The notes under the pieces are model-generated. The model did not search any database. It was not told the origin of the DNA and worked only from the letters and a program-made list of their open reading frames with translations. A program made the position numbers and the translations under genes. This document shows, in pieces, positions 12,081 to 56,187 of a DNA stretch of 60,479 bases (position 1 is its first letter; each line of letters starts with the position of its first letter). The DNA lies in IMG/VR virus record IMGVR_UViG_3300048548_000184, positions 1 through 60,479 of that record; one strand, 5' to 3'. The DNA is from a virus.

Positions 12081-12102
12081 TAACCACATAAAATAATAAG
12101 AT

Positions 12103-12141
12103 AAAAGGGGGGTTGACTATACTCCCCTTTTTTGATATAAG
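12103..12141 (+). promoter_or_regulatory. terminator with the tmRNA promoter's -35 box in its loop
   Basis: A 10-bp stem (AAAAGGGGGG at 12103-12112 with CTCCCCTTTT at 12122-12131) is followed by a T-run to 12133, an intrinsic terminator for the cotransporter operon. The loop begins TTGACT (12113-12118), and TATAAG at 12136-12141 lies 17 bases further. Together these form a sigma70-like promoter starting near 12148, the predicted 5' end of the tmRNA precursor. Confidence 0.75.
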
Positions 12142-12147
12142 TATATC

Positions 12148-12475
12148 TGTTAACGTTGAAGCAACGTAGACACATACTGGACTTGGGGGCAGTACCCAAC
12201 GCCTCCACCATAAATGCACTGCGTCCTGCTGCAACAGGAAGTTTTGCAGAACATAGATGGCCCGAATGGGTGGTCGAAGTTAGTGCATTTATGATGGGGG
12301 CGAACTAGGATCGACAGGTGTGAAAGTGAAGTGGAGTTAACCGTGGTGACTGACGATATTAGGTCAACAAACTAAATGCAAACGATAACTTTGCACCATC
12401 TGGTTACGCACTAGCTGCATAACACAGGGGGTTGGCTACTTACCTAGCAACAGAAAAGTAGCAGATTAACAACTA
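12148..12475 (+). ncRNA. ssrA: circularly permuted two-piece tmRNA (ssrA)
   Basis: The order is that of alphaproteobacterial permuted tmRNA. The acceptor piece comes first (about 12148-12210): a short hairpin ACGTTG/CAACGT, a T-arm TTGGG/CCCAA, and the 3' end CGCCTCCACCA. An excised loop follows, closed by a perfect 12-bp inverted repeat (12209-12220 with 12282-12293). The coding piece starts GGGGGCG at 12296, pairing with CGCCTCC, and has AGGATCGAC. The tag frame at 12378-12422 reads ANDNFAPSGYALAA-stop. A pseudoknot region (GCTACTT/AAGTAGC) follows, and TTAACA at 12466 can pair with TGTTAA at 12148. It would tag proteins stalled on ribosomes for proteolysis. The exact ends are estimates. 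Confidence 0.92.
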
Positions 12476-12489
12476 AGGGAACGAAACAT

Positions 12490-12726
12490 ATGGAAATTCT
12501 AACAAAGGTAAAATCGTGGGCAAGCAATCTTGCTGATGTAGGTATCAGCATTGCAGCTTTGATGATCGTAGTAGAAGTACTAGGTCTTGGGGCTATCCCA
12601 TTTTTCCCTGAAACAAGTGTAGTCGCTAATGTAAGCGGTATGCTTGGTACTCTAGGCGCTGAAGGTCTAATGGGCTTGATCGCTATCTGGGTTCTATATG
12701 CTATTTGGAACAAATCACAAGCTTAA
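12490..12726 (+). CDS. small two-span membrane protein
   Basis: The 78-residue protein has a short amphipathic start (MEILTKVKSWASNLA) and two membrane segments (VGISIAALMIVVEVLGLGAI and GLMGLIAIWVLYAIW). AAGGGA lies upstream. No family is recognised; the size and two spans would also fit a small holin. It lies between the tmRNA and the beta-barrel gene and is probably co-transcribed with the latter. Confidence 0.7.
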   Translation: MEILTKVKSWASNLADVGISIAALMIVVEVLGLGAIPFFPETSVVANVSGMLGTLGAEGLMGLIAIWVLYAIWNKSQA

Positions 12727-12744: not shown

Positions 12745-13137
12745 ATGAAAATTGCAGCAATCACAGCAGCAGCACTATTAGCAGCAACATCAGTCTCAGC
12801 AAATGAGATTGGCGCAACTGGCATCACTTGGGGTGTAGAAACAGAAGCAGCATACACAATCAATGACGCAGCAGGTGCTGACGTAGAAGATTTTGGCGTA
12901 AAGGTAACTCCTGAAATCGGATACACAATGTTTGGTGTAGGTATTACAGCAGACATGGATCTGCCTGTATATAACAACGAAGAGTTTAAACTGGACCAAG
13001 CCTTCGATAATCCAAAAATTAACTTGGGTGCAACATACGAAGTATTTGGTGGACTTGAGTTGTTTGGTGAAACAACATGGGATGTAGACGCATCTGATAC
13101 GGTAAGCTCAAAAGTAGGTGCTACCTTCAGCTTCTGA
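12745..13137 (+). CDS. small outer-membrane beta-barrel protein with signal peptide
   Basis: The 130-residue protein has a clean Sec signal (MKIAAITAAALLAATSVSA, then NEIGA). The mature part consists of alternating polar/hydrophobic strands (GVKVTPEIGYTMFGVGITAD, GLELFGETTWDVD). It ends GATFSF with a C-terminal phenylalanine, the outer-membrane-protein signal read by BAM. About eight strands fit the length. Phages use such proteins to alter host receptors or block superinfection, but the role here is inference. A strong terminator follows. Confidence 0.75.
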   Translation: MKIAAITAAALLAATSVSANEIGATGITWGVETEAAYTINDAAGADVEDFGVKVTPEIGYTMFGVGITADMDLPVYNNEEFKLDQAFDNPKINLGATYEVFGGLELFGETTWDVDASDTVSSKVGATFSF

Positions 13138-56110: not shown

Positions 56111-56187
56111 GGTTTCTTAGCTCAACTGGATAGAGCAACTGCCTTCTAAGCAGTAGGTTATAGGTTCGAGTCCTATAGAGACCGCCA
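56111..56187 (+). tRNA. tRNA-Arg (anticodon UCU)
   Basis: GGTTTCT and AGAGACC form the acceptor stem (one G-T pair). The anticodon arm is ACTGC-CTTCTAA-GCAGT with anticodon TCT, and the T-arm is ATAGG-TTCGAGT-CCTAT. The discriminator is G, and CCA is encoded at 56185-56187. It reads AGA, a codon favoured by this AT-rich phage. Confidence 0.95.

Follow-up and report, generated by a model that had tools for sequence, protein, structure and literature searches.

The window, a 60,479-base IMG/VR virus record that is possibly a genome fragment, carries on its plus strand a complete circularly permuted tmRNA gene of the alphaproteobacterial type (12149 to about 12464) with the tag ANDNFAPSGYALAA. 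This is a genuine and, most likely, functional gene; two-piece phage tmRNA as such is already known. An earlier note on this DNA had proposed that the phage encodes a permuted tmRNA in two pieces whose tag frame is complete and ends in ALAA, and had called for ARAGORN and covariance-model searches. Both were positive and confirmed the proposal. ARAGORN called a permuted tmRNA with the tag ANDNFAPSGYALAA at 12117-12513 (+), and two Rfam models matched above their cut-offs: RF04321 at 12149-12422 (121.6 bits, cut-off 47, E 3e-23) and RF01849 (alpha_tmRNA) at 12109-12465 (117.1 bits, cut-off 50, E 2.7e-31). The best alphaproteobacterial genes listed score 143-313 bits with RF01849 compared to 117 bits for the window gene, suggesting that the window RNA is divergent.

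The acceptor piece (12149-12210, +) comprises the 5' strand of P2 (GTTAAC), the T arm, the 3' acceptor strand CGCCTCC and ACCA, as supported by ARAGORN, Rfam and covariation; the CCA is encoded in the gene (12208-12210). The intervening spacer (12211-12295, +), which would be cut from the precursor, has paired ends that extend the acceptor stem. These ends form a perfect 12-bp repeat (CATAAATGCACT / AGTGCATTTATG) continuing into the acceptor stem, giving 21-nt arms that are 90% complementary (12200-12220 / 12282-12302). Since the repeat lengthens the acceptor stem, the precursor is predicted to fold as one long hairpin. Spacer length ranges from 4 to 277 nt across relatives, and two of these (L018 and L089) have very short spacers, with about 8-10 nt between CCA and coding piece. 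The coding piece (12296-12464, +; the 3' end is approximate and was placed from structure) contains the 5' acceptor strand GGGGGCG (12296-12302, +), the D-loop GGATCGAC (+), the 3' strand of P2 (GTTAAC, 12336-12341, +), the PK1 region (12342-12369, +), the tag reading frame and a 3' pseudoknot region. The tag frame called by ARAGORN (12378-12422, +) has an alanine resume codon and encodes ANDNFAPSGYALAA, ending in LAA before a TAA stop. The encoded CCA, the perfect repeat, the GGGGGCG strand and the coding piece in permuted order had all been described earlier, and all were found as described. The G3-U70 wobble of alanine identity is also present. The PK1 segment is of normal length; in close relatives its sequence is compatible, by eye, with a small H-type pseudoknot formed by CGU:ACG and UGAC:GUCA, but column counts did not confirm this, the alignment being poor there. 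Cofolding of the mature two pieces was not strongly better than that of shuffles (z -1.9), as expected of a pseudoknotted RNA, for which covariation is the better evidence.

Upstream of the acceptor piece is a sigma-70-like promoter (12113-12141, +) with a 10/12 match, consisting of TTGACT (12113-12118), a 17-nt spacer and TATAAG (12136-12141). Transcription is predicted to start at 12148-12149, where the acceptor piece begins, so that the 5' end would require little or no trimming. The -35 box TTGACT sits in the loop of a terminator-like hairpin (12103-12131, +; AAAAGGGGGG...CTCCCCTTTT; 11 pairs, -15.4 kcal/mol in a fold of 12098-12136), which is followed by a U-run to 12133 and closes the upstream gene. 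According to the fold, the hairpin and U-run can terminate this preceding gene, which encodes a half-length Na/Pi-cotransporter-like protein (PF02690, 11598-12080). A promoter score of at least 9/12 was found in 106 of 149 distinct viral upstream regions, compared to 20% of shuffles, and 74 of these 106 have the 17-nt spacer. The window promoter also contains TATAAGTA, which differs at one position from the T4 late box TATAAATA; the exact box occurs in many relatives. A pure T4 late promoter (TATAAATA) as the sole explanation was dropped, because TTGACA-like boxes lie 17 nt upstream and point to sigma-70. A consensus scan of the window listed neither the tmRNA promoter nor the terminator hairpin; the promoter escaped it because its -10 box lacks the T that the scan requires at position 6. 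The earlier note had placed the feature at 12148-12475. The locus was correct, but the acceptor piece starts at 12149, the 3' end lies near 12464, and the functional unit also takes in the promoter at 12113-12141.

The gene content of the window is that of a T4-like myovirus, with a UvsX-like recombinase, a DnaB-type helicase, ribonucleotide reductase, a glucosyltransferase, a Nol-like carbamoyltransferase and a cell-wall hydrolase (endolysin). The nearest named relatives in the UvsX/helicase region are phages C48C1 and Melnitz, both Kyanoviridae; a literature search found no paper on the origin of C48C1. Directly 3' of the tmRNA gene is a conserved 78-aa membrane-like protein (MEILTKVKSW..., 12490-12726, +) with zero matches in Pfam and PHROG searches, followed by an outer-membrane-like protein (MKIAAI..., 12745-13137) without a family match. 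Homologues of both trail the tmRNA in many relatives, with and without PK1. The window also encodes a tRNA-Arg (TCT) at 56111-56187, and Melnitz has a tRNA-Arg(TCT) as well.

Comparison with viral relatives indicates that the window gene is under selection, as judged from an invariant G3-U70 and from compensatory changes in acceptor, T-arm and most P2 pairs. G3-U70 is present in all 94 distinct long-form viral sequences, window included. Acceptor pairs 5-6 and T-arm pairs 1-3 are paired in 93-94 of the 94 despite several pair types, and the P2 pairs in 69-92 of 93-94, among which TA/AT/GC/CG swaps occur. Even among the nearest relatives P2 changes by a direct swap, from GUUAAC:GUUAAC in the window to GUAAAC:GUUUAC in L004. 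The tag frame is intact in every match listed unless cut by a contig end.

The tag belongs to a family, ANDNFAP[SQTK]GYALAA, that is described here and is viral in all matches. A DNA pattern for ANDNFAPxGYA had matches in at least 119 contigs of IMG/VR and in none of the 84,980 GTDB genomes of bacteria and archaea; wherever a listed viral match was not truncated by the end of its contig, the tag was ANDNFAP[S/T/Q/K]GYALAA. Scanning viral sequences a second time, with the T arm in place of the tag, recovered diverse tags, mostly of 14 aa, and those outside the ANDNFAP family are very diverse. Host tags were taken from the tmRNA loci of 289 alphaproteobacterial genomes sampled across the class, which were reached from three records (including Thalassospira) that had matched a T-loop pattern; they are mostly 12 aa long (46 of 89 distinct sequences). 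Phage tags are mostly of 14 aa, a difference also newly described here: tags of at least 14 aa occur in 57 of 97 distinct viral and 9 of 89 distinct host sequences, which are phylogenetically non-independent and were parsed by a rule that gave no tag for 32 of 124 host loci and a doubtful one for some others. The earlier suggestion that the tag may differ from that of the host holds as a fact of sequence, ANDNFAPSGYALAA being unlike all alphaproteobacterial host tags sampled. The supposed rarity of tmRNA among phages was not borne out, since the tag pattern alone occurs in those 119 or more contigs and two-piece phage tmRNA had been described before (PMC9004378).

Some relatives with this tag appear to lack PK1. 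Among the matches listed, the distance from the D-loop CGAC to the resume codon is 27-28 nt in 24 of 64 distinct same-tag viral sequences and 59-66 nt in the others. In 77 host genes with AND tags it is 62-69 nt, leaving room for PK1 in every one measured. On these sequence comparisons the stretch missing from the short forms is PK1, with an A-rich linker placed directly after P2. Short forms with the same or a similar tag include L042, L028, L047, L089, L096, L085, L012, L005, L069 and L148. In 26 distinct short forms, the true partner strands of P2 pair at -9.2 kcal/mol compared to -7.3 kcal/mol for swapped strands, and none of 10,000 permutations was as good; the swaps include GUAGAU:GUCUAC, GAAGAU:GUCUUC and GUAAGC:GUUUAC. 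All 12 short forms tested passed the RF04321 cut-off. ARAGORN recovered 4 of 52 short forms compared to 105 of 138 long forms, suggesting that PK1-lacking genes are probably under-annotated. The downstream genes common to short and long forms suggest that both belong to one phage group. When two short forms were compared with named phages by blastn, the matches were all short and local. In one PK1-lacking group (L036, L047 and L074) the tmRNA is followed by a gene for a protein of 359-362 aa, which by eye resembles a Rieske-type oxygenase. A second viral group (L131, L147, L163, L169, L176, L196 and L220) has 43-47 nt between D-loop and resume codon, perhaps another reduced PK1 region, and carries different tags (ANDNAPISYALAA, ANDNNAYEMALAA).

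Laboratory studies report that a hairpin or single-stranded RNA can stand in for PK1 (PMC3968760, PMC4236655). The literature searched held no report of a natural PK1-free tagging tmRNA, which is not proof of absence. New here, then, is a putative viral subclass with the same tag, no room for PK1 and a P2 apparently kept by covariation. On balance we favour the view that marine T4-like phages carry a permuted tmRNA lineage that has diverged from bacterial tmRNA, with phage-only and longer tags. One subclass would have lost PK1 but retained P2 and the tag, yielding naturally PK1-free RNAs that can still rescue ribosomes, and the window gene would represent the form with PK1.

The window gene is very probably a functional phage ssrA gene, supplying a trans-translation RNA that sustains the ribosome supply in infection. 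Its promoter would be read by host RNA polymerase, and from the spacing the transcript would begin where the acceptor piece begins. By analogy with known permuted tmRNAs, the precursor would fold with its spacer ends paired, host RNases would excise the spacer, and two RNAs held together by the acceptor and P2 helices would be left. Host AlaRS is expected to charge the RNA via G3-U70, and host SmpB and EF-Tu would deliver it to stalled ribosomes, where ANDNFAPSGYALAA would be added. Neither the window nor any of nine related records, among them the complete genomes of Melnitz and C48C1, was found to contain an SmpB gene, so host SmpB would be needed and the RNA most likely joins the host trans-translation system. 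Adaptors and ClpX generally recognise SsrA tags by their ANDN start and LAA end. Both are retained here, making degradation by host proteases likely, and the tagged product would be degraded by host ClpXP. The most likely benefit would be extra rescue capacity while the infection destroys host mRNA and ribosomes stall on broken messages.

The phage-specific tag raises another use, in which the phage tmRNA outcompetes that of the host and its longer tag is handled differently by adaptors and proteases, so that degradation is redirected. This fits the distribution of the tag pattern (at least 119 viral contigs, 0 of 84,980 GTDB genomes), the excess of tags of at least 14 aa among viral sequences, and the diverse, mostly 14-aa tags of cultured alphaproteobacterial phages. 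However, the tag keeps the very ends that adaptors and ClpX generally read, and the great diversity of viral tags outside the family is consistent with weak constraint on the tag middle. Redirection is therefore possible but rather doubtful, and less supported than extra rescue capacity.

The absence of an encoded SmpB would also suit an RNA that titrates SmpB and so blocks host trans-translation. Such a decoy was proposed for the tRNA-like-domain-only form of phage DS6A (PMC4131195, PMC11915505), and tRNA-like-domain-only phage forms exist in the literature. A decoy needs neither a tag frame nor the 3' structure, yet the frame is complete in all matches listed that are not contig-cut and the 3' structure is kept; the retained frame makes this role very unlikely. 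The divergence of the RNA and its fewer bits than host genes could instead mark a non-functional relic of a host gene that was acquired through imprecise excision or transfer. This is contradicted by the compensatory changes across 94 distinct viral relatives, the invariant G3-U70 and the conserved promoter and tag, and we consider it highly improbable.

That phages bring their own ribosome-rescue RNA suggests that ribosome stalling may be a constraint on infection. Specialists are likely to be most interested in the conserved phage-only tag family and in the relatives without PK1, both of which are natural tests of which tmRNA parts are needed. Cultured roseophages with an unannotated permuted tmRNA (DSS3P8, MD18 and RcXuper) make the question testable now.

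Several known systems resemble the window gene. One-piece tmRNAs are the form known from mycobacteriophages and Bacillus phage G, which are unrelated to the phage of the window. Phage-encoded tmRNA has been described in both (PMC4131195). Two-piece phage tmRNA has been published for Melnitz and for 53 of 402 tmRNA-bearing phages among 18,146 genomes, 50 of the 53 being aquatic (PMC9004378). Like the window, Melnitz (MZ577097, Kyanoviridae) is a T4-like marine phage with a permuted two-piece ssrA of the alphaproteobacterial type, and its tag likewise has 14 aa and ends in YALAA, but differs in sequence (ANDNYVPVDYALAA). Its ssrA is described as linked to a glutamine riboswitch and has other neighbour genes; no glutamine riboswitch was matched by Rfam at gathering score in the window. 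The earlier note had taken the permuted form as a link between the gene and alphaproteobacteria. Although the RNA is indeed of the alphaproteobacterial type, this link is weak: Melnitz has the same type and infects OM43, which is not an alphaproteobacterium (PMC9004378), so that the host group cannot be safely read from the type of RNA.

The ssrA of alphaproteobacterial hosts (RF01849; Caulobacter two-piece tmRNA) shares with the window gene the permuted order, encoded CCA, G3-U70, P2, a PK1-sized segment and an ANDN...LAA tag. In contrast, its tags have other sequences, mostly of 12 aa, and its model scores are higher. Permuted tmRNAs with no tmRNA feature annotated at the match are also present in the cultured roseophages and rhizobial phages DSS3P8, MD18, RcXuper, RcSimone-Hastad, Cp1R7A-A1 and Phosso, and in the cultured alphaproteobacterial phage records KT870145, MT270409, OP186293, MW677525, MT188704 and PV764938. 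The resume-codon distance in the permuted tmRNAs of cultured roseophages and rhizobial phages is 62-69 nt. Their tags differ from that of the window (e.g. ANINNAPMEMAIAA) and are diverse and mostly 14 aa long.
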